DNA of 41,098 nucleotides from a virus: positions 1-41,098 of IMG/VR virus record IMGVR_UViG_3300033153_013458. One strand, given 5' to 3'. Position 1 is the stretch's first letter; every line of letters begins with the position of its first letter. The position numbers and the translations under genes are program-made. This document shows positions 10,487-41,098 of the stretch, piece after piece. The notes under the pieces are model-generated. The model had not been told where the DNA came from. It ran no database searches and saw nothing but the letters and a program-made list of their open reading frames with translations.

Positions 10487-13400
10487 ATGTTCAACTTAAA
10501 AAAATATAGATATGCAGATACTCAAGATGCAAGTTTCGTAGAAAACATATCAAATAAAGGTGATATTCAGAATTTTCCTCCAGATTTAAGAAACGTTGCT
10601 CTTGAAACTCAAGATAATCTTGAAAATGCAGATGTAGAAAAAGAAGAGGTTGAAAAAACATACGAAACGTCTGATTTAAAGGAGCAATTTAACAACTATT
10701 CCAATCTCGCTTATTTAAAAATGTTGCAGGATAAGTACGAAGGTGTTCCTGAATTTCAAGATCTTATAGTTAAACTTCAAGCCAGGGAAATAACAGAAGG
10801 TGATCTAGAAAATTTTAATGAAATCATGCAAAAAGTTTTAAACGGAGAAATCTCGCCAGAAGAACAAATAGCAATTAGTGGCACTGATGTCCAATCCGCA
10901 GCAGCAAGCATGTTTAATAGAGACTTGCCATTAATTCAACAGACAATCTACAAGGAAAGAGAAGCAAGAGAAAATGCACAAGTCGCATCTTCTTCAAAAC
11001 AGGTTAAAAAAGGACAAATTATTCCAGACCAAAATTTAATGAATGAACAAAATAATCAAGTCATGTCGACTGTCCTTCCTGTTGAAGACATTGGCGATTT
11101 TATAAATAAAATGGTTAAAATCATCTTAAGCGGAGATGAAACAAGTTTTAACCAAGCTCAATCTGAAATTGTGTCTAATGTGTCTGCCGATTTGGAGCAG
11201 GAAGCTCAAAGTGCTTTTGGCTCCTTGAAAGAATTTTTAGGAAGAGCAGAGGAAGAAGAAGAAATTGCTTCAATTCTTACTAGAGTCTATGGACTTCTTC
11301 CTTCGACACAAAGCTCTGGTGAAGCAACTTTGCAAGAGGAGCCGATGATGGCTAAGTCATTTAATCTTTCAAAACATTCAGAGAAAGAAGAGGGACTGAC
11401 AAAAGAAGCCTATTTCCATGTCGGTGATAGCTACTTGATGTACGGTCCAACTGAAAAACGAATTTGTCCAAAATTAAGAGGAAGAGGCGGTGGAAAACCA
11501 GGAGGCTCAGATGTCGTGTCTGAAGAAATTTGCCGTTTTCACTGTCTCGATGGGATAATCATAGATGATAATAAAACTATCTGTGGCGAAGCACTTTGGC
11601 GTGCTAATGTGATGGATAAGTTCAGTCGTGAATATGTTGATAAAGAAGGAAAAATTGTTGGTGGGTATTTGAATAAGAGATTTGAAATTGATCGAAATGT
11701 GGCACCAGAAAACAGCGCTCGCCTGAAACCAGGAGAAACTAGAAAACCTAGACCTCCAGAATTAGGCGTCACCGAATCTCGAATGCAAGCAATGCGAAAT
11801 AAAGAAGGAGAAGCAAGAGATTATCGTCCTGCGACCAATACTGGTCAGCCCTTCAATTGGCAAAAAGATGTAGATCAAAACAATGTCAACCAGACTCAAA
11901 AAGAACGAGATCGTAGAGAAGAAGCAATGGGTCATCAGTTGGTTCAATACACAAATAAAGAACAACTGGAAAACCATCCGAAGATGGAAAAACAAGCTCA
12001 AGTTATTCCAGACGATGGTTACGCTGATGGAGGCGAACCATATACTGACGAAGAAATGGATTTAATGGCAAAGCCCATTAAGCCTACTGTTCTCGATAAT
12101 GGCATTCGCATATATAAAATTGGCAATATGTTTTTACCTGGTCTCAATTTTAACCCGAGATATGAAAACCGCTTTGGTCGTATATTGATTGGAGGAGATA
12201 GAGGAGATGTCATTGCAGATAGTGCTTATAATGATGAGAAAAATGGAAAAAGAGGGGTTTTTCTTAGGAATGTAATTTTTAGAACAACTATTGATTTTGA
12301 CGATCTCCTGCCAGAGGAACTTCGTAATGAAGCCGAAAATGTGATACTTTTTGCTTATGAATCCATTCAAGGGGATGCCTTCATTCCTCAAAAAAATGCA
12401 AATAAACCAAAATTAAAAAAACAATTCGCCAAAGAAGCAAAAGGGAAGAAATTCATTCAGGATGCAGTTAAAGACGAAGGATCATTTACAGAATATTGTG
12501 GTGGAAAAGTCACTCAAGAATGCATAGAACGTGGCAAAAAAAGTCCAGACACCAAAACGAAACGTAGAGCCAATTTGGCTGAAACTTTGAGAGGATTGCC
12601 AAGAAAAAAGAAAAAAGCATTTAACCTAAATGAATATAAAAGTGCTGCTAAAGAACCAAAAAAAGCAATAGCTAATTCACCAATTGTCGCTTATCAAAAA
12701 CTCGTTAGTGAAGTGACAACAGCAACTAGCCCTGAACAACTGGATTCAATTAATAAAAGAGCCATTAAAGCTGAATTGCCAGATCTTCTTGGAAGGCAAC
12801 TCAGCGATGCTATTTTAGAAAAATCTAGAGAACTATCAAAAAATGATGATTCTCAGCTGATCGATTCTCCAAAAGACGAAGCCAAACCAATGATGATTTC
12901 CCAGGAAATGGGAACGGCAGTGATAAATCCTTCTGCTACATCTTCTCAAAAAACAAAAAAAGCAAAGTCAAAGTATCCAAAATCTGAAACAACTCCTTAT
13001 AATCCATGGGCAGTTTGTTTTGTTCCTGGAACATTTGTTACAATGAAAGACGGAACATCTGTTCCTATTGAAAAAATAAAAATTGGAGATTATGTTATTT
13101 CACATCGTGGAAATCCACAAAAAGTTACGAAAGTTTTTAGTAGATTTGTTGATGAAAAATTGTTAAAAATACAAGTTAATGGTGTTGCAGACAAAACAAT
13201 TGTCACAAAAGATCATCCATTTTTTGCCATGACTTCTACAAGAAATTTTAAAGGTTATGCGAAAGATCAGAATAAAAACAAAACAGGAAAACGATGGTAT
13301 TCAGATACCTATGAAGACAGTCCCAAATTTATAAAAGCTCGATATTTAAAAAAAGGCGATGCTTTACATTCTCCAAGTATCAATTTTCTAGACAGGGATG

Positions 13401-15163
13401 TATCATTGAATATCAACGAACAAGATGCTTTTGTTATGGGTCTATATTGTGCAGAAGGATGTCTTGATAGAAGGCCAGTAGCGAAAACATGGAAATGCGG
13501 GAACAGACATAATAGAAAGGACACATTTGTTCCTGTGGACAAGAGCTATAGAATCAAATTCGCTTTAAATAATTTTGAAGATAAATTTGCTATTAATTTT
13601 TTGAAGAAATATAGTAATAATAAACTTAATATTTATGGACCATATAGATCTAGTCCCAAAGCAGTTTATATAATTCTTTCATCAAAAAGTTTATATAATT
13701 TATGTGAAAAACATATTGGAAAATATTCTCAAAAGAAAACTTTAAGTAATGCACTCATGAGTATGTCGCCTGCTATTTTGCGATATTTTCTTATTGGTTA
13801 TTTTTTGGGAGATGCCAATATAGAAAGAAGTTCTTTTCAAAAGAAAAATAATAAGTATTCATCGTTTCAATCTTCAGGAAAAATGAAAATATATGCCACA
13901 TCTGCTTCTAGAAATTTAATAAATCAACTATTTTGGATTTGCGAGAAATGTGGCATTGTAGCAACTACAAGAAAACAAAAAGAAAATAGGGGACCATATA
14001 ATAGAGAAAAATCATATTATAATTATGGGGTAGAGCTTGATGCAACCGAATCCTGTAAACTTTTGCCAGAATTTAATAAATTAAAAGTTTTTGGAGATGA
14101 CATTTTGATTACTCCGTCTGGTCGAAAAGCTCAAAGATTTGCTATGGCAGCCTGTACCTATGGAAAAGTTATTTCAGTTAGTGAAACTGATTATTCAGGG
14201 AAGACTTATAATCTTGAGGTAGAAAATGATAACACTTATGTTGCCAATCTTTGTTCCGTTCATAATTGTTCAGAATCAACAGGAAGAGAAGATAAAGAAA
14301 AATACGAAAGCTGTGTGCAGGACGTCAAAAAACAAAACAGAAAAAGTAACAAACAAAAAAAGAGTAAATCAGCAAGCAATAAAACAGCAACTTATGGTTG
14401 GTCTTTCTCTCAAGATTTTTATGAAGAATTAGAAAGAGCATTAGAAAAGAACATTTTATCTGATCCGGTTTTTAAAAAAGGATTAGAAGATTTGCTCGGT
14501 TTCGCTAGAGAAGGAGCCTATGCCGAAGGAGTTCCAGTTGACATTTTAATAGATTCTGCAATGGAACAAGCGGAACAAGTTAATACTGTTACCGATCTAT
14601 CCTCTCCTGTGGAAGTCTGGATTGACGAGGAAGGATATTTAACTGTTGAAGTTCCAGAAAGGGATGACTTCAACTATGAAGGAGAAAATCTTGCCAAATC
14701 TTTTAATCTAAAGAAATTCAAAACCGCTCAAATGACAGGATTAAGAGGACCAGTTGGTCCAGAAAATCCAATATCAGATGATCTTGGACTAAGTCCAGAT
14801 TATTTGCCAGATGAAGACTTTGATAAAGAAGTGCCTCTAAGCGAAGTGGTAGAAGAATATATGGGCGAAGTAGATCGAGCAGAAAATTCAGAACAACTAC
14901 TAAAGGCAATTCTTGATGCTCATAAAAATTGGAAAACAGAAGGATTGTCAATGCGAGATCTAGACCAAATCATGGACGCTGCTTATGATAGAGGAAAAGA
15001 ATTAGGTGTGGATTTGGAACAGGAACTTTATGGTGAATCAGATCGTGTCTTTGAAGACATAGGAATTGAAGGACCTCCTATTACACAAAGAAGCAGAGGA
15101 CCTAGATATTTCGCTAAAAACAAAAAACCAATTAAAGAATCTCAAACTAAAAAAAAAAGTTAA
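10487..15163 (+). CDS. Giant multi-module virion-type protein containing an intein
   Basis: The frame encodes 1558 residues; removing the intein (13016-14266, 417 residues) leaves 1141. The start MFNLKKYRYAD is echoed three more times inside: SFNLSKHSEKEE near 11353, AFNLNEYKSAAKE near 12617 and SFNLKKFKTAQ near 14698. It therefore looks like four units fused head to tail. One unit has CPKLRGRGGGKPGG and CRFHCLDG (possible metal site). After splicing, NPWAV joins CSESTGREDKEKYESC, a motif I associate with tailed-phage virion proteins. The region after the intein (ILSDPVFKKG to IEVW-like VEVWIDEEGYLTVEVPE) is duplicated in the next reading frame. The frame ends at an A10 tract followed by AGT TAA; see the frameshift entry. 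Function is unknown. Confidence 0.8.
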   Translation: MFNLKKYRYADTQDASFVENISNKGDIQNFPPDLRNVALETQDNLENADVEKEEVEKTYETSDLKEQFNNYSNLAYLKMLQDKYEGVPEFQDLIVKLQAREITEGDLENFNEIMQKVLNGEISPEEQIAISGTDVQSAAASMFNRDLPLIQQTIYKEREARENAQVASSSKQVKKGQIIPDQNLMNEQNNQVMSTVLPVEDIGDFINKMVKIILSGDETSFNQAQSEIVSNVSADLEQEAQSAFGSLKEFLGRAEEEEEIASILTRVYGLLPSTQSSGEATLQEEPMMAKSFNLSKHSEKEEGLTKEAYFHVGDSYLMYGPTEKRICPKLRGRGGGKPGGSDVVSEEICRFHCLDGIIIDDNKTICGEALWRANVMDKFSREYVDKEGKIVGGYLNKRFEIDRNVAPENSARLKPGETRKPRPPELGVTESRMQAMRNKEGEARDYRPATNTGQPFNWQKDVDQNNVNQTQKERDRREEAMGHQLVQYTNKEQLENHPKMEKQAQVIPDDGYADGGEPYTDEEMDLMAKPIKPTVLDNGIRIYKIGNMFLPGLNFNPRYENRFGRILIGGDRGDVIADSAYNDEKNGKRGVFLRNVIFRTTIDFDDLLPEELRNEAENVILFAYESIQGDAFIPQKNANKPKLKKQFAKEAKGKKFIQDAVKDEGSFTEYCGGKVTQECIERGKKSPDTKTKRRANLAETLRGLPRKKKKAFNLNEYKSAAKEPKKAIANSPIVAYQKLVSEVTTATSPEQLDSINKRAIKAELPDLLGRQLSDAILEKSRELSKNDDSQLIDSPKDEAKPMMISQEMGTAVINPSATSSQKTKKAKSKYPKSETTPYNPWAVCFVPGTFVTMKDGTSVPIEKIKIGDYVISHRGNPQKVTKVFSRFVDEKLLKIQVNGVADKTIVTKDHPFFAMTSTRNFKGYAKDQNKNKTGKRWYSDTYEDSPKFIKARYLKKGDALHSPSINFLDRDVSLNINEQDAFVMGLYCAEGCLDRRPVAKTWKCGNRHNRKDTFVPVDKSYRIKFALNNFEDKFAINFLKKYSNNKLNIYGPYRSSPKAVYIILSSKSLYNLCEKHIGKYSQKKTLSNALMSMSPAILRYFLIGYFLGDANIERSSFQKKNNKYSSFQSSGKMKIYATSASRNLINQLFWICEKCGIVATTRKQKENRGPYNREKSYYNYGVELDATESCKLLPEFNKLKVFGDDILITPSGRKAQRFAMAACTYGKVISVSETDYSGKTYNLEVENDNTYVANLCSVHNCSESTGREDKEKYESCVQDVKKQNRKSNKQKKSKSASNKTATYGWSFSQDFYEELERALEKNILSDPVFKKGLEDLLGFAREGAYAEGVPVDILIDSAMEQAEQVNTVTDLSSPVEVWIDEEGYLTVEVPERDDFNYEGENLAKSFNLKKFKTAQMTGLRGPVGPENPISDDLGLSPDYLPDEDFDKEVPLSEVVEEYMGEVDRAENSEQLLKAILDAHKNWKTEGLSMRDLDQIMDAAYDRGKELGVDLEQELYGESDRVFEDIGIEGPPITQRSRGPRYFAKNKKPIKESQTKKKS
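13016..14266 (+). mobile_element. Intein with LAGLIDADG endonuclease in the giant virion-type protein
   Basis: This in-frame insertion of 417 residues begins with Cys in CFVPGTFVTMKDG (block A) and has the block B motif TKDHPFF. It carries two LAGLIDADG-like helices (VMGLYCAEG and LIGYFLGDAN) and ends with YNLEVENDNTYVANLCSVHN, followed by Cys as the first C-extein residue. All residues needed for standard Cys-to-Asn/Cys protein splicing are visible. The host sequence rejoins as NPWAV-CSESTG. The acid residues of both LAGLIDADG helices are present, so homing activity is plausible. Confidence 0.92.
15149..15158 (+). other. A10 tract: probable -1 frameshift joining the giant protein to the next frame
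   Basis: The zero frame reads ACT AAA AAA AAA AGT TAA. A -1 slip on the A run (A AAA AAA type) reads AAA AAG TTA ATT CCT and stays open to 15834. The -1 frame from 15151 encodes the missing first half of a repeat that is complete in the giant protein, so the two frames belong to one coding unit. This is either programmed slippage giving two products or a one-base length error in the homopolymer. Confidence 0.6.
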
Positions 15164-15842: not shown

Positions 15843-18800
15843 ATGCCCGATAAAGGAATTATAATTCAACCAGGTGATCCCGAGTTTAATGACCCATCCT
15901 ATAAAGAAGGATGGGGAAATTCCTTGCCGCCAAAAGAAGCAATGCAGAAGAAAATGTCAGAACTCGGAAGCACCTATAATCATGCTTTGCCTACGACTGC
16001 CGTCACTCCGTATTTTCATAAGACGGCACAATCATCCGATATCAATACAATCTTTACGAATCCAATGTGGTTTTCACCACTGCATACCCCACAATCGTGG
16101 CAAATAGCTAGCAGGCGCAGAGAGATTTACCAATGGTCGTTTGTTTCTTCGAAAAAACCGTGTTTTCTAACGAAATATGGCGATTTTTCGCTAGAAAAGA
16201 TTGAAGATATATATACATTAATGAACTCGAAGGTCGTTGAAAACAAGGATTTGTATATACAAAACGCTAAAAGCCAACCTGCAAAAATCGACATTGCTAC
16301 CAAACGTCATGTTAAAAAGAAAGCAAATGAAATTAAAGTGATGGGCATTTCTCTGCCAATCACTGTCACACATGATCACGATTGCATGGTGGTTGAGAAA
16401 AAACAAGTCAAGTGTTCTAAAGGCATTAATAAGTCTAAAAATTGCATTCGAAACATGAATTCTCCAATTTGCCAAGGAATCAAATGCCGAAAATGGGAAA
16501 CTGTGGATTATGAAATTTCTAAAAAGAAAGCAAGAGATGTCAAGAAAGGTGATTATTTTCTTGTTCCATTTTCAAAGGAAGTGAAAGAAAGTGTCATTAA
16601 AACTGAAGCACAGGCCAAGTTTGCTGGACACCTTGCTTCTGATGGTTGTGTGTCTCCAGATCGAGTCGGTGTTAGAATTTTTATGCATTCAGATGAAGTC
16701 GAATATGTTCTTCCTCCAGTGAAAGAAACATTTAATGATTTTGGTTTTTCTCCAGGCGTGAAAACTTCACGGCATTCACAATGTCTCGTCACAGCAAGAA
16801 CTGGAAGCATTGCTATTACTGAATTCGCCAAAAAACTAGTTAAAGGAAAAAGTATAAATAAAAAGTTCACTGAAGAAGTGATGCTGCTTGAACCAGAACT
16901 CCAAAAACATGTTCTCGGAGCTTATATTCAATCTGATGGATCGCTTTCTAAAAGTAGCGACAATGTTGAAATAACAACTATTTCTCCTCATCTTGCGAAT
17001 CAATTGTTGATGATTTGTTTTCGATGTGGTATTTTAGCATTTTGCGGAAGATATAATATTAGTCAATCGTCAAAAACTTTTCCAACCAAAAATAAACATC
17101 GTTATGTCATCACCATTCCATCCTCAGATGTATATTCATTAGCTCCTTATGTTCCTGGAAAATTAGGCATTTTTAATAGAGACGAAGACGAAGAAAACGA
17201 AGAATTTGTATATACATACACTATGTTAGATGGCGATATGGGAAAGGTGAATCAACTCATTCCTCCCAAGAAAAAACGCACTCATAACAAGCGATTCTTC
17301 TGGAAAAACTATGTCATAACTCCAGTAACAGCAAATACTTCCTTTGATTACGAAGGTGATGTCTATGACGTGAGAGCACCAGATGATTTTACAGTCACAG
17401 CGAATGGCGTTGCCATACATCAATGTCGATTCTTCTACCAGTGTTTTACTCCTGAAAATTTAGTGTTGATGGCAAACGGAACTGAAAAAAGAATAGACAA
17501 AATCAAAAGAGGCGATTTAATTATAGCTGGTGATGGAAGTTCACAAGAAGTTAAAAATATCTTTAAGAGATGGACGAAAGAAAAAGCATTAGAGATTGGC
17601 GTTAGCGGAAATACCAGAAAAATAAAATGCACAAATAATCATATCATTCCGAGTATCGACAAGGATACGTGGCGTAAAAGCCATTTAACTACACCTTCTG
17701 AGAGAAGAAAAAAAGAAAGATTAAGAGATAACGATGATGTCGAATTTAGGATTAAGTGGGATTGTGCTGAGAATCTCTCGTTGAATTCTTTTCTTTATAC
17801 TCCTTCTACCAATATCGGCAATGGATATGATGCCTCTCTAGAAAAATGTTATGTTTTTGGTGCTTTCGTTGCTGAAGGAAGCTATTATTGGCATTTGTAT
17901 AAAGGAGAAAAGAAAAGAACTAAAGGAATTAGGTTTTCAATAAATAAAAACGAGGTTTCAGACGATAATTCTGAAAATTTGTTTGGAAATAGAATTATTC
18001 GATTTTTGAAAAAATCTCAACACAACAAAGTATCTCTGTATTCAGCTGGGAAAAATGAAAAAGGAGTAGAAAAAAACAGTTGTGACATTAGTGTTAGCAA
18101 TGTAGATTTTACAGAAGAATTTTATAAATTTTGTGGAAATAATCCAAAAATCATTAATTTTGATTTTATTAATTCTGCTTCAAAAGAACAATTATTATCA
18201 TTCTTGGCAGGTTATATTGACGGAGATGGGTGCTATAATGTTTCAAACGGATGCCAAATTATTACTTTTGATAAGAATTTAGCATCACAAATTTCTTTTA
18301 TTTGTGAAAAATTAAAGTTAACTTATTCTCTATCACAATCAAAATCAAGCGGTTTTAGCGATGGAGAAAATTACGATGCTAATAACGTTGATCGATTTTG
18401 TATCAGAATTTCTCGATTTGCTTGTGAATCTTTAAAAAAATATTCTTGTAAAATTACAAATCTTGATGTTCATAATACTAAATATGGAAATTATTTATTT
18501 GTTGATGACAAAATATACAGAAAGATAAATTCTATTTCCGAATTCACTTATGAGGGATATGTATACGATCTCGAAATAGATAACGTGCATTCTTATTGCG
18601 TAAATAGAATGGCAGTTCATAACAGCGAACCCAAGGTTGCTGCAGGCATCGATTTTTATAGTCAATTTCCAGTTAACGGGTTCAAATTGGTTTGGCCACA
18701 TAGTACGGGAGAAAGAAAACTTCTTAAATTTTTTGAACGAGAAACCAAACGCCTCGATCTTGTTAACATTCTGAGACAAATTTCTAGTGAATATTACATG

Positions 18801-21800
18801 TTAGGTGATGTTTTTCCTCATGCTGACATTTCTTGTCCGACTTGCAAAGGCAATCCTTATAATCCAATGACTGGAGAAATGTGCAATCATGCAGGCGGGA
18901 ACATCAGTCGCATTAAAATTTTGAATCCTGATTGGATCGAAGTGACGGACACCATTTTTGCTGACGAAGAGCAAATTGTGTTGATTCCAGATGAGCAAAT
19001 TGTGAGAATCGTTTCTACTAAACAGCCAAGACAAATTTATGATCGATTGTCGCCTCAAATCAGGCAACTCGTAATGGCACAAAAACCGATTTTGTTGTCG
19101 AATCGAGTAGTGAGTCATTTGAAGCACATGCCTGCCCCGTATGGAATATACGGCACCTCTCTCATTCGTCGTCTTTTCACAACTCTTGCTTACAAAACGA
19201 AAATCATGACGGCGAATTGGATTGTTGCTGAAAGGCTGATCATTCCAGTTCGGATCGTCAAAATCGGAAGTGACAATCGTCCTGCGACTTCGGCAGACAT
19301 CGCAGAATTCAATCAAATGTTGGCGGCAACAACGAATGATCCTAATTTAACTCTCGTCACACATCACAATCTAGACTATGATTGGATCGGTGCTTGTCAC
19401 GATGAAGAAACCGAGGTTCTAACTTCTTCTGGTTTCAAGAAATATGGATCTTTCGATTCTGATGAAGAAATTCTCACTTATAATGTATATACAAAACGTC
19501 TGGAATATCAGAAGCCACAGGCGTTTCATGAGTTTGATTATGATGGAGATTTGGTTCATTTCGAAGGAAAGCAAATTGATATTAAAGTCACGCCCAATCA
19601 CAGAATGCTTGTTCAAAAACGAAGATCTGATGATTGGCATGTCAAATTTGCAGATGAAGTCAGGTCAGGAGATCATCTTCTTGCTCATGCTCAATATGAC
19701 GGCGAAAAATTCAATCCTGTAGTAAACATTCATGATCAATTAGTGGACTTGAAAGATTTTCTATCTTTTGTTGGTTATTATTTGTCTGAGGGATCAATCA
19801 AATTCAACAAAAAACGCAGGGAATACATTGTTACGATTGATCAGAGTCCGAAAATCAATCCAAAAATTTGCGAATGCATAGAAAAAACTCTCTCTTCTCT
19901 TCCTTATAAATATTCTGTCTTGAAGAACGATGACAAAAATCGGTATCGAATTTTCAAGAAATCGTTGTGTGTGTTCTTGGAAGAGAATTTTGGTCGTTAT
20001 TCCAGAAATAAGAAAATTCCAAATTGGATTAAAAATCTTCCTTCCGATTATTTAAGAGTTTTGATTAATTCATTGATGAACGGAGATGGTTATAGCATTA
20101 AAAACATTCACACTCGCAACAAAATCTATACTACTATCTCTAAAACATTAGCAGATGATGTACAAGAAATTGCCTTTAAGTCTGGTTATAATGTTCGTAT
20201 TCTTAAAGAGAAAACTAAAAACGTCAATATAGTCTATCGTGTTCGTTTTAGTGAAGGAAAATGGAGCAAAGGCAACGAACCTCGACTCAAAAAGCATCAC
20301 ATTTCTCGCGTTCCTTACAAAGGCAAAGTTTGGTGTTTCACTGTGCCGAATGGATTTTTTGTCACTCGACGCAATGGCAAGATCGCGATTCAAGGCAATT
20401 CAGGCAAGATTCTTCAACTCGGTCAAGAAATGGAGCATATTGACAAAGAGATGTTGGATGGTTTGATGTTAAATCAAGCATTGCTCAATGGCGAGATGTG
20501 TTTGACGGGCGATCATGAAGTCTTGACTGATTCTGGTTATAAAATGATTGATTGTGTTGAATTCAAGGATCAATTGTGTGTTTGGGATGATGACAATCGA
20601 ACCTATCGATTTGAGAATCCCAGAGACATTTTTAAATATGAAGATGTTGATGACATTTTCGAAATTCATTGTGGTAGAAAGATTCTTTTCAAATGCACTG
20701 GTGCTCATAAAATTGTCATTCGACCAGAAAAAGATCATCAAAAACATGATACCATTACTGCCAAGGAATTATTTAATAACGAATCTCAACATGTATACAC
20801 ATTGATGAGGGATGGCAATTATTGCGAGATTACCAATGTAGTCAAGAAGCCGCATAAGAATGCTGTTTATTGCTTTAAAACGAGTACTGGTTATTTTATG
20901 GCTCGTTATAGAGATTTTGAATTTATAAGTAGCAATTCTGGATACCAATGTCATGATGTTGATCAAACAGAAGTCTTGACACAAAGTGGATTCAAAAAAT
21001 ATGACGATATTACCGAGGATGATTTAATTGGAACTTTTAACGAAAAAACAGAGGAACTTGAGTATCAGCCTTATTCTAATCGTTATGATTATTCTTATGA
21101 TGGAAGAATGATTCATTTTAAATCAAAACGTATGGACTGTTTGGTTACTCCAAACCATAGGATGTTAATTAGAAACAGAAATAGTCGAAATAAAGATAAA
21201 TGGGAAATCTCTTTTGCAAAAGACGTAACGCCAAGTCACCAATTTAGGACTGTTGTTAATAAATGGCAAGGAAGAAATAATTTTCCAAAAACAATTAGAA
21301 TTGACAATGAATACGAATTGGATCTTGAAGATTATATCAAATTAGTTTGTTATTTTGCTGCTGAGGGATCTATTCGTCGTGAGACAAGAAAAGAAAGATC
21401 TACTTTTGGAGAACCAGCTACTACAACAATTTGCCAGTCTGAAAAGGGGAAAGCATTTATTGGTATCAAAAAACTTTCTGATTCGATTTCATATCGTGTA
21501 CGACACTATGCAAAATATGATCAATTTTGTATACATAACAAAAAGCTGACTACCCATTTGATTAGTGCGTGTGGTTCTCGTAGCGAGAATAAACGCATTC
21601 CTTCTTGGATTAAAGAATTGCCGACCAGATATTTGCATTTAGCTATTAATTGTCTTATCGAAGGAGATGGTTATTTAGAGCATTCTGTTAAAAACGGTTA
21701 TCAATATGGATTTGAAGTTAAAAGCAAGCAATTAGCTGAAGACTTGTATGAAATAGCATTTAAATGCGGTTATTCGCCACTCATGGCAAAACGCAAAAGA

Positions 21801-23078
21801 CGAGATCTTTGGGCAGTGGATTTTTCTGATGCTCCTAGCGGTCGCTATCCATATTTAACAAGCAAATATATTGAAGAAGAAAACTATAAAGGTAGAATTT
21901 TTTGCTTTACAGTTCCAAATGGTTTATTTATAACAAGAAGGAATGGTAAAATTTCCATTCATGGGAATAGCGCTCAAGTTGGTGTAGAAGTTTTGATTCG
22001 TCGTCTTGAGGCTTGGCGCACTACATTGGCTGAATGGGTTGAGGAGCGAATTTTCAAGCCAATCGCTCAAATGAAGGGATTAATTGACAAGGAAGCCAGT
22101 GAGGAGTCAGGAGAAAACATTTGGCTTTATCCCATTTTAAAATGGAATGATCTTAATCTGAAGGACAAGACACAATGGTATCAACTTCTCATGCAGCTTC
22201 ATGATAAACAAGTTATTTCAACTCAAACTCTTTGTGATGAGCTTGATTTAAATTACGATCAAGAAGTTGAGCGTTTGCGTTATGAAATGGCACAGGCAGG
22301 TCCAATGGGGGCTCAACTCGGTGGAATGGGTGAAATGGGTGGCGGAATGCTTGGCGGCGGTCTTGGTGGCGGTGGCATCAGTGCTCCAGGCGGTGGTGCT
22401 GCAGCTCCACCGCCTCCAGGTGGAATTCCTGGAATGCCTGGAGGCGAAATGGGCGGTGGAATGCCTGCGCCAGGTGGAGCCCCTGGTGGTGCAGCAAGTC
22501 CTATTGCCGCTGGTCAACCGATGAAAGTTTTAAAACGCAGCAAAGCAAAAGCGATTCAGGAGAAGCAAGAACCGATGCAGTTTGGTCAGGTGAAATTCAC
22601 TGGAATTGAGCAGGAATTTCGCAAGATGTTAGACAATGTTGTTAGTACAATGAAGATTAGTTCTCCTTATTATTTTCAATATAAAGTAGAAAAGACTGCG
22701 GGTGGACAACCTTATTCCATTGATTTTGCTTTTCCAAAACTTCGGCTTGGCGTTGAATTAGATGGCAGTGTCTGGCATAGCAATCCAAAGCAAGTACAAC
22801 ATGATCGGCAAAGGGATAACGAACTAGCAATGAAGGGGTGGACGGTTCTCAGGTTTGATGACAAAACAATGGAAAGTCAGCCAAATGCAGTTCAAAACGT
22901 TGTTGTCAGTTATTTACAAAAAGCCATGTCGAGAGGAAGAGTCAAGAGATCCAAGGTGGACTCTGGAGACGGTGACACTAACTACATCACTGTTTATGCT
23001 GATCGTTTAATCAACGTTTACAAAGACGAGTTGCCTGAAGGATTAATCAAATTGGCATTAGGAGAAGAGGAATGTTAA
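15843..23078 (+). CDS. Portal protein interrupted by five inteins, with C-terminal DUF559/Vsr-like nuclease domain
   Basis: The frame has 2411 residues. Five inteins occupy 1644, leaving about 767. The rejoined host reads ...RRREIYQW-CRFFYQ-SEPKVAAGIDFY..., ...DWIGA-SGKILQLG..., ...NGEM-SGYQ-SAQVGVEVL..., which reads as a continuous portal: the N-terminal YQWCRFFY/AAGIDFY region, a Cys/His knuckle (CPTC and CNHAGG), KTKIMTANWIVAERL, and the helical stem and crown. Portals form the dodecameric DNA channel at one capsid vertex. A Gly/Met/Pro-rich linker (about 22290-22520) leads to YSIDFAFP, LGVELDGSVWH and GWTVLRFDDKTM, the pattern of a DUF559/Vsr-type PD-(D/E)XK fold. AGGTGA lies before the ATG. 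It overlaps the next gene by 7 bases. Portal identity is fairly sure; the role of the nuclease-like tail is unknown. Confidence 0.88.
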   Translation: MPDKGIIIQPGDPEFNDPSYKEGWGNSLPPKEAMQKKMSELGSTYNHALPTTAVTPYFHKTAQSSDINTIFTNPMWFSPLHTPQSWQIASRRREIYQWSFVSSKKPCFLTKYGDFSLEKIEDIYTLMNSKVVENKDLYIQNAKSQPAKIDIATKRHVKKKANEIKVMGISLPITVTHDHDCMVVEKKQVKCSKGINKSKNCIRNMNSPICQGIKCRKWETVDYEISKKKARDVKKGDYFLVPFSKEVKESVIKTEAQAKFAGHLASDGCVSPDRVGVRIFMHSDEVEYVLPPVKETFNDFGFSPGVKTSRHSQCLVTARTGSIAITEFAKKLVKGKSINKKFTEEVMLLEPELQKHVLGAYIQSDGSLSKSSDNVEITTISPHLANQLLMICFRCGILAFCGRYNISQSSKTFPTKNKHRYVITIPSSDVYSLAPYVPGKLGIFNRDEDEENEEFVYTYTMLDGDMGKVNQLIPPKKKRTHNKRFFWKNYVITPVTANTSFDYEGDVYDVRAPDDFTVTANGVAIHQCRFFYQCFTPENLVLMANGTEKRIDKIKRGDLIIAGDGSSQEVKNIFKRWTKEKALEIGVSGNTRKIKCTNNHIIPSIDKDTWRKSHLTTPSERRKKERLRDNDDVEFRIKWDCAENLSLNSFLYTPSTNIGNGYDASLEKCYVFGAFVAEGSYYWHLYKGEKKRTKGIRFSINKNEVSDDNSENLFGNRIIRFLKKSQHNKVSLYSAGKNEKGVEKNSCDISVSNVDFTEEFYKFCGNNPKIINFDFINSASKEQLLSFLAGYIDGDGCYNVSNGCQIITFDKNLASQISFICEKLKLTYSLSQSKSSGFSDGENYDANNVDRFCIRISRFACESLKKYSCKITNLDVHNTKYGNYLFVDDKIYRKINSISEFTYEGYVYDLEIDNVHSYCVNRMAVHNSEPKVAAGIDFYSQFPVNGFKLVWPHSTGERKLLKFFERETKRLDLVNILRQISSEYYMLGDVFPHADISCPTCKGNPYNPMTGEMCNHAGGNISRIKILNPDWIEVTDTIFADEEQIVLIPDEQIVRIVSTKQPRQIYDRLSPQIRQLVMAQKPILLSNRVVSHLKHMPAPYGIYGTSLIRRLFTTLAYKTKIMTANWIVAERLIIPVRIVKIGSDNRPATSADIAEFNQMLAATTNDPNLTLVTHHNLDYDWIGACHDEETEVLTSSGFKKYGSFDSDEEILTYNVYTKRLEYQKPQAFHEFDYDGDLVHFEGKQIDIKVTPNHRMLVQKRRSDDWHVKFADEVRSGDHLLAHAQYDGEKFNPVVNIHDQLVDLKDFLSFVGYYLSEGSIKFNKKRREYIVTIDQSPKINPKICECIEKTLSSLPYKYSVLKNDDKNRYRIFKKSLCVFLEENFGRYSRNKKIPNWIKNLPSDYLRVLINSLMNGDGYSIKNIHTRNKIYTTISKTLADDVQEIAFKSGYNVRILKEKTKNVNIVYRVRFSEGKWSKGNEPRLKKHHISRVPYKGKVWCFTVPNGFFVTRRNGKIAIQGNSGKILQLGQEMEHIDKEMLDGLMLNQALLNGEMCLTGDHEVLTDSGYKMIDCVEFKDQLCVWDDDNRTYRFENPRDIFKYEDVDDIFEIHCGRKILFKCTGAHKIVIRPEKDHQKHDTITAKELFNNESQHVYTLMRDGNYCEITNVVKKPHKNAVYCFKTSTGYFMARYRDFEFISSNSGYQCHDVDQTEVLTQSGFKKYDDITEDDLIGTFNEKTEELEYQPYSNRYDYSYDGRMIHFKSKRMDCLVTPNHRMLIRNRNSRNKDKWEISFAKDVTPSHQFRTVVNKWQGRNNFPKTIRIDNEYELDLEDYIKLVCYFAAEGSIRRETRKERSTFGEPATTTICQSEKGKAFIGIKKLSDSISYRVRHYAKYDQFCIHNKKLTTHLISACGSRSENKRIPSWIKELPTRYLHLAINCLIEGDGYLEHSVKNGYQYGFEVKSKQLAEDLYEIAFKCGYSPLMAKRKRRDLWAVDFSDAPSGRYPYLTSKYIEEENYKGRIFCFTVPNGLFITRRNGKISIHGNSAQVGVEVLIRRLEAWRTTLAEWVEERIFKPIAQMKGLIDKEASEESGENIWLYPILKWNDLNLKDKTQWYQLLMQLHDKQVISTQTLCDELDLNYDQEVERLRYEMAQAGPMGAQLGGMGEMGGGMLGGGLGGGGISAPGGGAAAPPPPGGIPGMPGGEMGGGMPAPGGAPGGAASPIAAGQPMKVLKRSKAKAIQEKQEPMQFGQVKFTGIEQEFRKMLDNVVSTMKISSPYYFQYKVEKTAGGQPYSIDFAFPKLRLGVELDGSVWHSNPKQVQHDRQRDNELAMKGWTVLRFDDKTMESQPNAVQNVVVSYLQKAMSRGRVKRSKVDSGDGDTNYITVYADRLINVYKDELPEGLIKLALGEEEC
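16137..17423 (+). mobile_element. Portal intein 1 (LAGLIDADG; Ser1, C-terminal Gln)
   Basis: 429 residues from SFVSSKKPCFLTKYG to NGVAIHQ, with Cys as the next extein residue. Block A is LTKYGDFSLEKIEDI and block B is TVTHDHD. The LAGLIDADG-like helices are FAGHLASDGCV and VLGAYIQSDGS, and block F is GDVYDVRAPDDFTVTANG. The boundary is set by restoring the portal motif YQW-CRFFYQ. This makes residue 1 Ser instead of Cys and the last residue Gln instead of Asn, both non-standard. An alternative start at the Cys of PCFLT would leave eight extra residues in the portal and give a block A that is too short. Confidence 0.85.
17442..18623 (+). mobile_element. Portal intein 2 (LAGLIDADG; Cys1, HN, +1 Ser)
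   Basis: 394 residues from CFTPENLVLMANG to VNRMAVHN, followed by Ser of SEPKVAAG. Block B is CTNNHIIPS. The LAGLIDADG helices are VFGAFVAEGSY and FLAGYIDGDGC, the second nearly consensus. Block F is YEGYVYDLEIDNVHSYCVN. It starts only 18 bases (residues CRFFYQ) after intein 1 ends. Splicing residues and both endonuclease acids appear intact. Confidence 0.92.
19395..20399 (+). mobile_element. Portal intein 3 (LAGLIDADG; ends GN, +1 Ser)
   Basis: 335 residues from CHDEETEVLTSSGFKKYG to RRNGKIAIQGN, followed by SGKILQLG. Block B is VTPNHRMLVQKR. The endonuclease motifs are FVGYYLSEGSI and LINSLMNGDGY, and block F is YKGKVWCFTVPNGFFVTRR. The penultimate residue is Gly rather than the usual His. 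It is clearly related to intein 5, which shares both ends. Confidence 0.92.
20499..20936 (+). mobile_element. Portal intein 4 (mini-intein without endonuclease)
   Basis: 146 residues from CLTGDHEVLTDSGYKMI to YRDFEFISSN, followed by SGYQ. Block B is CTGAHKIVIRP and block F is NAVYCFKTSTGYFMARY. There is no LAGLIDADG helix between them, only about 60 residues, so it is a natural mini-intein that can splice but not home by itself. The penultimate residue is Ser instead of His. Confidence 0.88.
20949..21968 (+). mobile_element. Portal intein 5 (LAGLIDADG; paralogue of intein 3)
   Basis: 340 residues from CHDVDQTEVLTQSGFKKYDD to RRNGKISIHGN, followed by SAQVGVEVL. Block B is VTPNHRMLIRNR. The endonuclease motifs are LVCYFAAEGSI and AINCLIEGDGY, and block F is YKGRIFCFTVPNGLFITRR. 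It begins just 12 bases (residues SGYQ) after intein 4 ends. Both ends match intein 3 closely, pointing to a common ancestor. Confidence 0.92.
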
Positions 23079-28972: not shown

Positions 28973-30109
28973 ATGAAGAGAGAGAAGTGGAATAGAGAAA
29001 AAATAATAAGTAGAATTTCACATCTTCAAAAAAATAACATTCCATTAAATTCAGGTTTCATACAAAACCGTTATCGTGCATTATATCTGGCTTCATGTAG
29101 GCATTTTGGAAGCTGGACAGAAGCACTTGCAGCTATTGGAGTTGATTCGTGTAAAGTTCTTGTAAGAAAAAAATGGAATAAACAAAAAACTATCGATGAA
29201 ATTCTTGAAAGAAAAAAAGCAAATAAACCGTTAAATTCTAATGTTATTCAAAATAATGACAAGAAATTAATGGCAGCAGCACTCAAATATTTTGGTGATT
29301 GGAATTCCGCAATTAAAGCCAGTGGGTTAGATATTGATGAAATTCGAAAACCCAATAAAAATTGGGCAATTGGCGATATGAAAGAATTGGCTGAAAGGAA
29401 AGGAGGAAAGTGTTTATCTGAAAAATACATCAATGCAAAAACTTATATGAAGTGGCAATGTGCAGATGGACATGTTTGGACAGCTAAACATAACTGCATC
29501 AGACGTAGTTGGTGTCCATATTGCTCAAGGTATTTATCAGAAGAGAAATGTCGTTTTATTTTTGAAGAATTAACAGGAGAAAAATTCCAACGAACTAGAA
29601 AAATTTTAGGGAAAGGATTTGAGCTAGATGGATATTGCAAAGATCTAAAAACTGCTTTTGAATATCAAGGACAACAACATTATTATTTTGTTAAGTATTT
29701 TCATAAAACAAGAGAGAAACTTGACAAAATAAAAGAAAGAGACAAATATAAAATAAAGAGATGCAAAGAATTAAAAGTGTCTTTAATAGTCATTCCTTAT
29801 ACTGTTTTTGACAATTCTAACGAAGTTAATTTTATATTTCGAAATCTCCAATTACTTAATGTTAAAACAATATGTAATGTTGAAGATTTTTCTTATGATG
29901 GATTTATTAATTCTAAACTTTTATCAATTAAGAAAATTGTTAAAGAAAAAGGTGGAAAATTAATTTCCAATTTTTATGCAGGAAGTAGTCATCCAATAAT
30001 AATTGAATGTAAAAGAGGACATATGCATAGCACGACATGGGACATATTAAAGCAGGGTCACTGGTGTGCCAAATGTGGCTATTTAGATAGATACAAGAAA
30101 GCATCTTAA
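28973..30109 (+). CDS. Free-standing homing endonuclease-like protein (HNH-associated repeats, zinc ribbons, PD-(D/E)XK-type core)
   Basis: The 378-residue protein starts with two copies of a helical repeat: W...I...I......N.PLNS..IQN...L..A....FG.W..A....G. This is the type known as the homing-endonuclease-associated repeat. A zinc ribbon follows (CADGHVW with CPYCSRY), then FELDGYCKDLKTAFEYQGQQHYYF and RDKYKIKRCKELKVSLIVIPY, which fit a PD-(D/E)XK/Vsr-like core with Asp, Glu and Gln/His. The C-terminus has a second ribbon (CKRGHMH and CAKCG). Such enzymes cut specific DNA to spread their own gene. It has its own -10 element and a terminator and sits between protease and head genes, so it looks like an inserted cassette. 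Confidence 0.8.
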   Translation: MKREKWNREKIISRISHLQKNNIPLNSGFIQNRYRALYLASCRHFGSWTEALAAIGVDSCKVLVRKKWNKQKTIDEILERKKANKPLNSNVIQNNDKKLMAAALKYFGDWNSAIKASGLDIDEIRKPNKNWAIGDMKELAERKGGKCLSEKYINAKTYMKWQCADGHVWTAKHNCIRRSWCPYCSRYLSEEKCRFIFEELTGEKFQRTRKILGKGFELDGYCKDLKTAFEYQGQQHYYFVKYFHKTREKLDKIKERDKYKIKRCKELKVSLIVIPYTVFDNSNEVNFIFRNLQLLNVKTICNVEDFSYDGFINSKLLSIKKIVKEKGGKLISNFYAGSSHPIIIECKRGHMHSTTWDILKQGHWCAKCGYLDRYKKAS

Positions 30110-36900: not shown

Positions 36901-37062
36901 ATGTTTGATAAGAATAGTTTGACTAACGAACAGAAAGAGGCTGTCATCGCACAGGCTCTGAACACCGATGAAGGTCGAACTGCACTCGCACAGGCCATGG
37001 TAGAACCAATTAGACGTTCGCTTGAGTATCAGGCTGTTGGACGTAAGTTGCTCTTGGTGGAT
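36901..37062 (+). CDS. Major capsid protein, 5' exon (residues 1-54)
   Basis: ATG 36901 has AAGGAG upstream. The exon reads MFDKNSLTNEQKEAVIAQAL to EYQAVGRKLLLVD and, without splicing, would stop at TGA 37063-37065. It is highly expressed-type sequence, more GC-rich than the intron that follows. The last six codons pair with the intron's internal guide (see intron). Joined to the 3' exon it gives KLLLVD-ELPQGALARYERD in one frame, a 289-residue capsid protein. Confidence 0.88.
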
Positions 37063-38162
37063 TGACCTAAAAAGCTTGTCCACCTAGAGTTGTGAAACTC
37101 TATAAAAAAATCGTGCTCATAACGGAGAACCCTAAGTTGTATAAAAAAATGAAAATTGAAACAAAAGAGAATAAAACGCATATACAATATGGTAACTCCG
37201 TGGGAAGTTTAAGGAAAATTCTAATAGGATTGCAATGAGTAAGAAAACGCGAATAATAAAAGAAGAATTAACAAAACTCTATGTAGAACAGGATAAAACT
37301 ACTTATGAAATTGCTTCTATTTATAGTTGTGATAGAAGAACAATTTCGCGTTATCTTAAGCAATATGGAATAACCATAAAAAGACACAAACGAGCCTATT
37401 CGTTTTATTATGAACAAAAATTAAATGACATTCAAAAAGATTTAATTCTAGGGAGTTTGATAGGTGATGGATGCATTTCCAAACATCACGATGGAGTTAA
37501 TTCTTGCAGATTTTTAGAACAACATTCCATAAGACAATTGGAATACCTGAAATGGAAAAAAGAGATATTAAACAATTTCGTTTCCTCTGATATTAAAATA
37601 ATTGATAACTCAAAAAACAATAGTTATGGAAACGAATTAAGTTGTAATTTTATCACTGTTCTTCATAAAGAATTTGTAAAATTTTATGAAATGTTTTACA
37701 AAAACAAAGTGAAGAGGATCCCTTATTTTCAATTGTCACCTATTAGTTTAGCGGTATGGTATTTTGATGATGGAAGCATAAGCAAATTGGGGCAAAAGGG
37801 CAATTACTATAGTGCTAGATTTCATACAGAATCTTATGATGACGAAAGTATAGCTAATTTACAAAAAATGCTTAAAGATATGGATATTTCGTCTAACACT
37901 ATTAATGTGAAAAAGAAATATAAAATTATCTCTCTTCCACATATAGAAACTAACAAATTGATGAATATTATTGCTCAATATGCAAACTCAATACCATGCA
38001 TGGCTTATAAAATAAAGTTTTCCGATAACCCCGTAGAGACTCAGGCTTTTATGTCTGGAGTGCCAATTCTGAAATGTTTTGGTGCTAACACGCACGACTC
38101 TCTGTTTTCATTCAGAGATGATGGTATAGTCCGTGGCTCCCGAAAGGGATGACCATTTCTCG
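37063..38162 (+). ncRNA. Group I intron in the major capsid protein gene
   Basis: The intron is 1100 bases. P1: exon GGTGGAT (37056-37062) pairs with GTCCACC (37078-37084), with the required U-G wobble at the 5' splice site. P10: AGCTT (37073-37077) pairs with the first exon bases GAGCT (38163-38167). P2: AGAGTT/AACTCT (37086-37101) with a GTGA tetraloop. CGGAG (37123-37127) pairs with CTCCG (37196-37200). P7: CACGACT (38093-38099) with AGTCCGTG (38128-38135) and a bulged C. P8: CTCTG/CAGAG (38100-38117). ATGGTATAGTCC matches the conserved P7 3' segment. The last base is G (38162). It is self-splicing by family knowledge and carries a LAGLIDADG gene in its middle. Confidence 0.9.
37235..38152 (+). 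CDS. LAGLIDADG homing endonuclease encoded in the group I intron
   Basis: The protein has 305 residues. Residues about 10-50 form a helix-turn-helix (TTYEIASIYSCDRRTISRYL). The two LAGLIDADG helices are LILGSLIGDGC (acid Asp78) and SLAVWYFDDGS (Asp178/179), so a single chain can form the full active site. Such enzymes cut the intronless allele at the insertion site and spread the intron; some also help splicing. The gene runs into the intron's 3' core and stops at TGA 38150-38152, ten bases before the 3' splice site, so core RNA and coding sequence overlap. AAGGAAAA lies upstream of the ATG. Confidence 0.9.
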   Translation: MSKKTRIIKEELTKLYVEQDKTTYEIASIYSCDRRTISRYLKQYGITIKRHKRAYSFYYEQKLNDIQKDLILGSLIGDGCISKHHDGVNSCRFLEQHSIRQLEYLKWKKEILNNFVSSDIKIIDNSKNNSYGNELSCNFITVLHKEFVKFYEMFYKNKVKRIPYFQLSPISLAVWYFDDGSISKLGQKGNYYSARFHTESYDDESIANLQKMLKDMDISSNTINVKKKYKIISLPHIETNKLMNIIAQYANSIPCMAYKIKFSDNPVETQAFMSGVPILKCFGANTHDSLFSFRDDGIVRGSRKG

Positions 38163-38870
38163 GAGCTGCCACAAGGCGCTTTAGCCAGGTACGAAAGAGA
38201 CGTTGCTGCGATTGCTCATGTCATCTCACGTCGAGGTGCCGTGCCTGATCAGATTCAGGAAGGCGAAGAAATTTTGGTTCCCACTTTCGAGATTGCTGCG
38301 AATCCCACAGTTCGTTTGTCTGAAATCAAAGCTCGTAGGTTCTATATCGTAGACAGAGCCCAGATTAAGGCAAAAGAGGCGATCCAGAAAGAGGAAGACA
38401 CCAACATTTTCAATGCTTTGCTTGCGGCTGTCAATAACAGAGCAACGCAAATCGTAACGAACGTTGGTACACTATCGCCTGCTTCCTTGAATACGGCTTT
38501 CCGTTTTGTTGAAGAGCATGACTTGGTTGCCACAAAAGTGGTATGCCATGCTCAGCAGTATGCGGCAATTCGTACTTTCGGAAAAGACTTCTATGATGAG
38601 GCAACGACAAGAGAAATCTTGACGTCTGGCCTCTTCGGGCACCTCTGGACCGCAGACATACACGTCTCATCTAGAATGCCAACTGACGAAGTCTTGATAT
38701 GTGCATCGCCCGACACTGTCGGTGCTTTCCCGATTCGTCAAGACATAACAGTATTGCCAGCGGATGATCCTAAGAAACTCCGCTTGGGCTGGGTTATTTA
38801 TGAGGAAATCGGAATAGTTGTCGTCAATGATTATGCTGTTAGTAAAATTGAAATCACTACTGGAACATAA
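38163..38870 (+). CDS. Major capsid protein, 3' exon (residues 55-289)
   Basis: This exon begins ELPQGALARYERDVAAIAHVI directly after the intron's terminal G. It continues with GAVPDQIQEGEEILVPTFEIAANPTVRLSEIKARRF, a helical ED..IFNALLAAV segment and a C-terminal beta-rich region (EILTSGLFGHLWTADIHVS, VLICASPDTVGAFPIRQDI, GWVIYEEIGIVVVNDYAVSKI). This is the order of an HK97-fold capsid protein: N-arm, E-loop, spine helix, P and A domains. At 289 residues it is of ordinary size. An apparent ATG at 38133 lies inside the intron and is not the start. A strong terminator follows at 38907. Confidence 0.88.
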   Translation, partial: ELPQGALARYERDVAAIAHVISRRGAVPDQIQEGEEILVPTFEIAANPTVRLSEIKARRFYIVDRAQIKAKEAIQKEEDTNIFNALLAAVNNRATQIVTNVGTLSPASLNTAFRFVEEHDLVATKVVCHAQQYAAIRTFGKDFYDEATTREILTSGLFGHLWTADIHVSSRMPTDEVLICASPDTVGAFPIRQDITVLPADDPKKLRLGWVIYEEIGIVVVNDYAVSKIEITTGT

Positions 38871-38906
38871 TCCAGTAATTGACTAAAAAAACCAGTGTTT
38901 TCTAAC

Positions 38907-38940: not shown

Positions 38941-38942
38941 CA

Positions 38943-39276: not shown

Positions 39277-39281
39277 AAAAC

Positions 39282-39863
39282 ATGAAAAAATTAAGAGAAT
39301 ATGCGAATCAACATAATGTCACCTATCGAACCGCTTACAATCACTTCAAAGCTGGACTCATTGAGAATGCCTATCAATTGCCAACAGGAACAATTGTAAT
39401 TCCAGATTCTTACCAGCCACCAGTCCAGGATTATGTCGTCACTTATGCAAGAGTTTCATCATCAGAGAACAAAAGCAATCTTGAAAAACAATCAAAACGA
39501 ATTCGAGATTTTTGTGCTGCTAAAGGTTGGATCATTCGAGAAGGCATTGAAGAAGTTGGTTCTGGAATTAACGAAAATCGCAAGAAATTGGACAAGATTC
39601 TCACTGAAAGAAAAGCCACTAAAATCGTAGTCGAGCATAAAGACCGCCTCACGAGATTTGGCTTCAGTTACATCGAAAAATTATGTGATAGATTCGGATG
39701 TGAAATCGTCGTCATCAACCAAGTTGAGAATGGAAAAGAAGATCTTCTTCAAGATTTCATTTCAATCATCACTAGCTTCTGTGCCAAGATTTATGGACTT
39801 CGAAGAAGCAAGAGGAAAACAGAGAAAATTATTCGAGAATTGCAAAATGAAAAAAGAGTCTAA
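39282..39863 (+). CDS. tnpA: IS607-family serine recombinase (transposase)
   Basis: The 193-residue protein opens with a MerR-like helix-turn-helix (LREYANQHNVTYRTAYNHF) and has the small serine-recombinase core YARVSSSENKSNLEKQ with candidate nucleophile Ser59 or Ser60. EEVGSGINENRKKL, VVEHKDRLTRFGF and FISIITSFCAKIYGLRRSKRK follow. This domain order, DNA-binding at the N-terminus and catalysis after it, is the IS607 hallmark. It forms a Ser-DNA link and moves the element by site-specific recombination with little target preference. It overlaps tnpB by 17 bases and appears intact. Confidence 0.93.
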   Translation: MKKLREYANQHNVTYRTAYNHFKAGLIENAYQLPTGTIVIPDSYQPPVQDYVVTYARVSSSENKSNLEKQSKRIRDFCAAKGWIIREGIEEVGSGINENRKKLDKILTERKATKIVVEHKDRLTRFGFSYIEKLCDRFGCEIVVINQVENGKEDLLQDFISIITSFCAKIYGLRRSKRKTEKIIRELQNEKRV

Positions 39864-41076
39864 CACTTTCTTTAAATCATCGACATGCTCCCTCAGATTT
39901 TCTAATTCAGGAAAAATTGACAGTCTCGATCTTTTTATTTCCGAATTCAGAAAAGTCTGTCAGATTTTCATTGACAAGTTCTGGAATGTCGAGAAAATTC
40001 CAAATCTAGTTCCAAGAGAATTCACTTCCAACATCGACACCTGGCTTTCGGCAAGAGCCATTCAAGCAGCCGCAAAACAGGCTTCTGGCATCGTCAGAGG
40101 CACAAGAAAAAAACAGGGACAACGACGATTCAAGCATCAAGAACTTTTCTCGAAGGGAATGTTCAAAAAAGCAAGAATTCTTCAGAAAATCATCGAAAAA
40201 AACGAATGTTCAAAACCAGATATTCAATCTCTCCAGCCTAATCTGGACTCAAGATTTATCACGATTGATCTTGACAATGAAACATCTTTTGACGGCTGGA
40301 TTGTTCTTTCAAGTCTTGGAAATTCTCTCAAGATCGAGATTCCTTTTCAGAGGACAAGACATTTCAATTGGATGGAAAGTCGTGGTTCGAGAAAATCTGG
40401 ACTTCAATTGTCTTCCTCAAAAGCGACTTTCACATTCGAGATTGAGAAACCTCCACAGAAGGAAAAAGGTTCTACGATTGGTCTTGACATTGGAATGAAA
40501 TCAATTTTCACGGCTTCAGATGGTCAAGTCAGTCATCAGGATCGTCATGGTTGGAATCTTGAGAGCATTCAGAGAAAGCTATCAAGACGCAAGAAAGGTT
40601 CAGTTGGATTTCGCAAGGCTCAGGATCACCGAAAGAATCATATCAACTGGTCGATCAACCAGTTGAATTTCAAGAATGTCAAGATTTTAAGAATTGAGAG
40701 GATGAAGCATTTGAGACAGGGCAGGAGATCTTCTCGTCTCATGACTCATTGGACTTACAAGAGCATCTTTGAGAAGTTGACAGACGTTTGCTTAGAATCT
40801 GGTGTCCAGATTCAACAAGTGTCTCCGACTTTCACGAGTCAGAGATGTTCTAAGTGTGGATGGGTTCGTAAGAGGAATCGAAAGAAAAAGCAATTCAAGT
40901 GTGACGAATGTGGATTTGCCACCGACTCGGATTTGAATGCTTCTCTGAACATTTCTCTTGAGCTTCCTGCGATTTGCAAGAAGCAACGATTGTCTCGACC
41001 CAATTTAACTGGTTTTTATTGGGAAGAGACGACTCAGGAGCCTATAGTCCCTGAGGCTCGGAAAGCGGTTTCATAA
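39847..41076 (+). CDS. tnpB: TnpB RNA-guided nuclease (IS607-associated)
   Basis: ATG 39847 is chosen because it overlaps the tnpA end and gives a 409-residue protein of normal TnpB size; the frame is open upstream but that part lies inside tnpA. RuvC residues are present: Asp214 in GLDIGMKS, Glu284 in LRIERMKHL and Asp362 in TDSDLNAS. A four-Cys zinc finger (CSKCGWV and CDECG) lies between the second and third. The N-terminal part is the REC/wedge region with SARAIQAAAKQASGIVRG. TnpB cuts DNA at sites chosen by an omega-RNA from the element's 3' end, helping it persist. It is ancestral to Cas12. All key residues look intact. Confidence 0.92.
   Translation: MKKESNTFFKSSTCSLRFSNSGKIDSLDLFISEFRKVCQIFIDKFWNVEKIPNLVPREFTSNIDTWLSARAIQAAAKQASGIVRGTRKKQGQRRFKHQELFSKGMFKKARILQKIIEKNECSKPDIQSLQPNLDSRFITIDLDNETSFDGWIVLSSLGNSLKIEIPFQRTRHFNWMESRGSRKSGLQLSSSKATFTFEIEKPPQKEKGSTIGLDIGMKSIFTASDGQVSHQDRHGWNLESIQRKLSRRKKGSVGFRKAQDHRKNHINWSINQLNFKNVKILRIERMKHLRQGRRSSRLMTHWTYKSIFEKLTDVCLESGVQIQQVSPTFTSQRCSKCGWVRKRNRKKKQFKCDECGFATDSDLNASLNISLELPAICKKQRLSRPNLTGFYWEETTQEPIVPEARKAVS
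41033..41055 (+). ncRNA. Hairpin in the tnpB 3' end, probable part of the omega-RNA
   Basis: CTCAGG (41033-41038) pairs with CCTGAG (41050-41055), and GAGCC (41038-41042) can alternatively pair with GGCTC (41055-41059), allowing a pseudoknot-like switch. The omega-RNA of TnpB elements usually overlaps the gene's 3' end and runs past it; the window ends 22 bases after the stop, so the guide portion is outside. Confidence 0.4.
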
Positions 41077-41098
41077 ATTTCATAAAACTCGCAACTAT

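Follow-up and report, generated by a model that had tools for sequence, protein, structure and literature searches.

The window, by which we mean the whole 41,098-nt stretch of virus record IMGVR_UViG_3300033153_013458 (IMG/VR), carries genes for a portal, a prohead protease and a major capsid protein, together with a series of inteins and other elements. Its portal is 34% identical to gp14 of Bacillus phage G, in which the gene order is the same (portal, decoration protein, major head protein), and the records that hold portal relatives reach 548 kb. The gp14 match, the shared gene order and the size of these records make it most likely that the window is part of the genome of a large, phage-G-like phage. 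When cellular genomes were scanned once with the capsid gene, a single match came up, a bacterial MAG contig. The stretch 5' of the head genes contains, at 261-1064, 1347-1898, 4002-4367 and 4767-6212, CCA-adding/poly(A) polymerase-like, NUDIX, DUF192 and WYL proteins.

Inteins and other elements of the window

The portal gene (15843..23078, +) is an ORF of 2411 aa, which matches phrog_16240 portal with an E-value of 8e-23 and would leave an extein of 767 aa after predicted splicing of the five inteins that this single ORF contains. Intein 1 (16137..17423, +; site A, Ser1, ending HQ|C) and intein 2 (17442..18623, +; site B, HN|S) both bear a LAGLIDADG nuclease and are separated by an extein island of six residues, CRFFYQ (17424..17441, +). 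The true start of intein 1 is at 16137, directly after Trp98 and 24 nt before the first Cys, because portals empty at site A read QW[CSA]RF without any gap. Intein 3 (19395..20399, +; site F) and intein 5 (20949..21968, +; site H) are also of the LAGLIDADG type and end in GN|S. Between them lies intein 4 (20499..20936, +; site G), set apart from intein 5 by an island of only four residues, SGYQ (20937..20948, +). Intein 4 is a mini-intein of 146 aa without nuclease, and it has a homologue at the same site in relative L002.

Intein 6 (13016..14266, +), 417 aa long and of the form C...HN|C, is inserted in an ORF of 1558 aa (10487..15163, +) situated 5' of the portal. This ORF has no named function, and homologues of its N-terminal part are found at 30 of the 35 portal loci. 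The intein itself is recognized by the Pfam Hint, Intein_splicing and LAGLIDADG_3 families; both its catalytic acids are invariant (alignment A2, 11 rows), and it has a relative in the same gene of L030, about 16 codons further down. Since Pfam Intein_splicing matches reach E-values down to 1e-29 in the window, and since relatives display exact empty sites, the inteins are not chance resemblances.

A few oddities concern the inteins of site A. Intein 1 of the window possesses Ser1 and the block B His, with Gln as last residue where class 1 has Asn; the HQ|C ending is atypical but known. Class 3 was ruled out for the site-A inteins, for in the alignment a block F Asp stands where class 3 has Cys, at what we take to be the position of that Cys. 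In relatives, a subfamily of site-A inteins is without the usual position-1 nucleophile and starts with Met, Leu, Gln, Lys, Glu, Asp or Thr; Cys is at +1 in the rows seen and the block F Asp is kept (examples are L017:8768-9982, L024:4566-5783, L028:8270-9490, L029:8765-9982 and L030:7664-8866). The L128 intein also has Cys at +1. Judging from its freely varying first residue, this subfamily looks like class-2-type inteins. As for portal inteins 2-5 and intein 6, their sequences point to class 1: Cys1 or Ser1, TxxH in block B, a C-terminal Asn, then Cys, Ser or Thr at +1, all in frame. The penultimate residue of inteins 3-5 is Gly or Ser; variation at this position is known among phage inteins (PMC5050341).

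The C-terminal end of the portal (22584..23075, +) is a nuclease domain, assigned by Pfam and Foldseek to DUF559/MTES_1575 and to the I-Bth0305I/Vsr fold. The predicted model reaches a pLDDT of about 90 for the greater part of residues 11-110. Its top Foldseek match is the homing nuclease I-Bth0305I (PDB 3r3p, E 7e-5), with Vsr among the top matches, and residues E, D, H, D and R are invariant in 27 rows aligned apart. By its modelled fold and its catalytic residues, the tail would thus be an EDxHD (I-Bth0305I/Vsr) nuclease. It is absent from phage G gp14. All of the 33 distinct portals reaching it have it, which means that it is not a mobile element. The tail resembles a nuclease domain that was captured and then became fixed in the clade; its fold and EDxHD-type residues are those of I-Bth0305I, but it is fused to the portal. 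In relatives, an intein site (site I) falls within its catalytic motif.

Between portal and protease, an ORF of 1076 aa (23857-27087) gave no match in Pfam or PHROG; long similarity was seen in L002 only (29%), with short C-terminal matches in three other relatives. The prohead protease gene (27494..28966, +; phrog_18299 head maturation protease, E 2e-10) is uninterrupted. Relatives have protease inteins at residues 153, 157 (beside GTSMG, a motif that is presumably catalytic) and 178. Those beside GTSMG in L017, L025, L031 and L032 have Ala as apparent first residue (ASRG...HN|C), and so are again without a position-1 nucleophile. Large protease gaps beyond residue 398 were rejected as inteins, being differences between long proteins. 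Directly 3' of the protease gene is a free-standing homing nuclease (28973..30109, +), with a Pfam HNH_repeat match and, by inspection, a Vsr-like region; a homologue occupies the same slot in L002, i.e. at 1 of the 35 loci.

The major capsid gene consists of two exons (36901..37062, +, and 38163..38870, +; phrog_2522, E 1e-50 for the second) separated by a 1100-nt group I intron (37063..38162, +), within which is a LAGLIDADG_2 nuclease ORF (37235..38152, +; Pfam E 2e-28). The insertion site is VD|ELPQGA, and empty capsids read through it without a gap; it is occupied in the window, L041, L046, L061 and L062, the ORF being missing in L046 and L062 (2 of 5 introns). Its group I character shows in a P1 (GGUGGAU/GUCCACC) that places a U.G pair at the 5' splice site, in a terminal G, and in helices P2 and P9, both backed by compensatory changes. 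At E<=1, Rfam reported no group I intron in the window or in the intron region; the identity of the intron therefore rests on its relatives, empty and occupied, and on the conserved pairing. In the same-site intron of L062, Rfam Intron_gpI matched full-length with E 0.0025, its 27.2 bits falling short of the gathering score (50). In L059, two further capsid sites hold group I introns that exceed the gathering score, and L062 and L058 gave sub-gathering Rfam matches. In the same-site intron of L061 (record G023), the nuclease ORF starts 30 nt in, against 127-172 nt elsewhere, and therefore lies at another place in the ribozyme.

At the right end, a TnpA serine recombinase of IS607 type (39282..39863, +; Pfam Resolvase, E 3.5e-18) adjoins a TnpB (39730..41076, +; Pfam TNB domain, E 4e-17; start placed by inspection at the first in-frame ATG), which is the arrangement of an IS607 element; the window may stop short of its right end and guide RNA. 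TnpB adjoins the portal in L021 and, by position, also in L027's record. The six inteins, the group I intron with its endonuclease, the free-standing homing nuclease and the IS607/TnpB element of the preliminary description were thus all recovered, by means of Pfam, PHROG and empty sites.

Occupancy of intein sites in related portals

One IMG/VR scan with the portal extein yielded 35 relatives, on records that are fragments picked for holding a portal. Without the near-duplicates L009 and L033, and with the window added, the set comprises 34 distinct portals. They contain 61 inteins at nine sites, 59 of them complete, of which 9 are mini-inteins. A patchy distribution of presence and absence, for which a survey of relatives had been proposed, is what emerges. 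In the numbering of the window extein (767 aa), the frequencies of occupancy are 14/32 at site A (residue 98), 4/33 at B (103/104), 9/33 at C (116), 1/33 at D (177), 3/34 at E (354, and 356), 9/34 at F (361), 7/33 at G (394, and 395), 10/33 at H (397/398) and 4/33 at I (661). The count for G leaves out the start of an intein (five residues) in L021. Each multi-occupied site requires 2-8 changes on the portal tree: 7 for A, 3 for B, 8 for C, 3 for E, 8 for F, 5 for G, 8 for H and 2 for I. The sites fall in conserved portal stretches: only 9 of 10000 random sets were as high, a value that becomes marginal (456/10000) with the six well-separated sites alone.

Close relatives carry differing sets. 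L002 has inteins at B and G, its contig being cut before A; L021 has them at A, C, D and E, plus the first five residues of the site-G intein at the contig end. The load of the window is the highest seen but is not unique, since the portal of contig 3300009529_000013 also holds five inteins (A, B, C, F and H). At the other extreme, the portals of L003, L015, L018 and L034 have none, and the partial portal of L035 has none within its covered part. The pair L019/L035, with one site empty in one and occupied in the other, is about 83% identical in DNA; around that site we found no gradient of identity of the kind that co-conversion would leave.

Fisher tests on the 28 site pairs gave no significant repulsion, i.e. 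no sign of mutual exclusion between adjacent sites, and adjacent sites showed no positive co-occurrence either. The sole nominal positive association (p<0.05) was A with C, at p=0.022 uncorrected for the 28 pairs. Taken together, these comparisons suggest that the elements turn over one by one, with no sign of block movement.

A single family, with GN as its ending, comprises the inteins of sites E, F, G and H. In the tree of this family, grouping each site as one clade was rejected, with AU p-values of 1.5e-3 (E), 1.5e-49 (F), 4.6e-7 (G) and 7e-23 (H); the site-G mini-inteins of the window and L002, which are on a long branch, were excluded from the test for G. Seven site changes are needed on this tree, the minimum possible being three. 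The best IMG/VR match of the window's site-F intein is the site-G intein of L008/L009 (46%). Inteins at the same site are less similar than their exteins, by a median of 12 points (228 pairs), so that most pairs give no obvious sign of having spread horizontally in recent times.

A profile of the GN-type family confirmed 357 loci across IMG/VR, of which the best 80 (79 distinct) were kept; they are the best-scoring part and no random sample. Among these 80, phrog_16240 alone matched 55 of 75 upstream (N) flanks and 46 of 70 downstream (C) flanks. The downstream set is 70 of the 73 long-enough flanks, as the match ended inside the intein in L130, L137 and L152. Further flanks of the best 80 matched other portal families, and a few were helicase or methyltransferase. 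Relatives of the window's GN-type inteins thus appear, from their flanking sequences, to reside mostly in portal genes.

The residue at +1 differs between occupied and empty alleles. It is Cys, Ser or Thr in the former, two rows of site B and one of site H showing Asn or Ala in that column because of a one-codon offset. Among empty alleles, it is Ala in 7 of 18 at site A, and Ala or Gly in 17 of 26 at site G.

Concentration in head genes and state of the nucleases

That the elements sit in or beside the portal, protease and capsid genes, as earlier noted, holds in part. In the window the protease is free of insertions, the nuclease coming just after it, and the host of intein 6 has no named function; the concentration as such extends clade-wide. 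It was evaluated on the 17 records with both portal and capsid, the window itself being left out. With custom models included, 33 elements were found in 236 kb from portal to capsid, against 26 in the remaining 1534 kb. This contrast is overstated, because two of the models derive largely from portal inteins and because a single G010 intein contributed two counts. Restricting the search to generic Pfam models gives 13 from portal to capsid versus 21 elsewhere (binomial p 0.0002, kinship uncorrected), and the enrichment drops from about 8-fold to about 4-fold. The concentration in head genes is thus real at the level of these annotations, smaller than the first count, and a property of the whole clade.

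The window inteins with a nuclease have the two LAGLIDADG motifs with their catalytic acids; for the intron ORF the assignment comes from Pfam. These acids are invariant in alignments A1 (27 rows), A2 and A3 (13 rows), and the five full-length window inteins, which are in those alignments, keep both. Of nine pairs of nuclease domains, five had a finite dS; these five, from relatives, gave dN/dS values of 0.15, 0.19, 0.23, 0.21 and 0.21 and are, by this measure, under purifying selection. Pairs that involve the window itself either were saturated or lacked a nuclease. With acids intact and purifying selection in relatives, nuclease activity and competition are possible. The preliminary description had named mutated acids and fixation in all relatives as signs of inactivity that would make competition impossible; the acids being intact, the elements not fixed and dN/dS low, neither sign was observed.

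Origin and possible role of the array

From the above, we consider it highly probable that the head module (portal, protease, capsid) is a homing hot spot, held by selfish elements that are independent of one another and among which an intein family specialised on portals predominates. Independent elements, mostly LAGLIDADG inteins, would repeatedly invade head genes; the inteins would then lose their nuclease, disappear, or move on to a nearby site within that gene. In this view the window is one heavily loaded snapshot of the turnover. The portal and neighbouring proteins would splice, the nucleases would cut empty alleles in mixed infections, and flanking head alleles would gain via co-conversion, as a by-product. 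In that sense marker exclusion is plausible, as a side effect of homing. A bolder version of this turnover makes the portal a long-lived battleground, in which portal-dedicated inteins re-target neighbouring sites, the fixed tail nuclease hits competing DNA and nuclease combat decides head alleles; we regard it as rather unlikely.

Equally doubtful is coordinated marker exclusion, in which the phage would keep the array because the nucleases together give the phage's head genes an edge when infections are mixed. Intact nuclease residues, patchy alleles and the concentration in head genes are as expected from it, and the many empty alleles of sites A and G without a usable +1 residue are what resistant alleles would look like. 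There is also an experimental precedent, the PhiPA3 intron nuclease, which gives a competitive advantage over PhiKZ (PMC11620839). Against it, the sets of close relatives overlap only partly, sites change independently with A and C as the one nominal association, adjacent sites do not co-occur, and four portals are intein-free, one of them on a 548 kb record; moreover, neighbouring inteins of archaeal MCM hinder each other's homing (PMC10643990). One coordinated competition system, as first proposed for this array, is therefore not supported.

Inteins domesticated for timing head assembly by conditional splicing are very improbable. The conserved sites, and in relatives the positions beside the protease GTSMG and within the motif of the tail nuclease (site I), could be seen as favouring such a role, but inteins habitually sit in active sites, and empty alleles are common and scattered over the portal tree. 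Least probable of all, decayed and inactive remnants would fit the nuclease-less site-G intein, the proportion of mini-inteins (9 of 59 complete portal inteins) and the capsid introns without ORF (2 of 5 at the same site), but not the intact catalytic acids of the rest or the low dN/dS.

The homing hot spot that we favour has parallels in known systems. The SPO1/SP82 intron nucleases (Goodrich-Blair and Shub, 1996) are reportedly homing nucleases located in a conserved gene of a phage and capable of acting on a co-infecting one. For jumbo phages, PhiPA3 gp210 shares these two characters with the present elements; competition was shown there by experiment with an intron nuclease (PMC11620839), whereas here it is inferred and the nucleases are many. 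Haloarchaeal mcm and polB (PMC10643990) have like the portal several close sites per gene, LAGLIDADG inteins, patchy occupancy and +1 polymorphism; the present case differs in being a phage structural gene, with nine sites of which up to five are occupied, islands of 4-6 residues, and related inteins at differing neighbouring sites. The mycobacteriophage portal (PORT) and TerL inteins also interrupt DNA-packaging proteins, with Gly for the penultimate His in some and several sites in TerL; the PORT inteins are one group in one subcluster, and the sections of PMC5050341 available describe no multi-intein portal. The Jug phages (PMC12363816) are huge phages with fragmented genes, including portal and protease; they have many introns and some inteins, mainly group I introns with HNH nucleases, whereas LAGLIDADG inteins prevail here. 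In the open-access literature, we found no description of a phage portal with several inteins.

For a single gene, the portals thus offer a natural series of nine intein sites, with numerous combinations and clean empty alleles, that allows direct comparison of site shifting, neighbour interference and nuclease loss. The extein islands of 4-6 residues probe how close two inteins can sit and yet splice and home, and the portal-specialised family shows that inteins can have a principal niche in structural genes. If the nucleases are active, the distinction between selfish and phage-serving homing nucleases becomes testable in jumbo phages.
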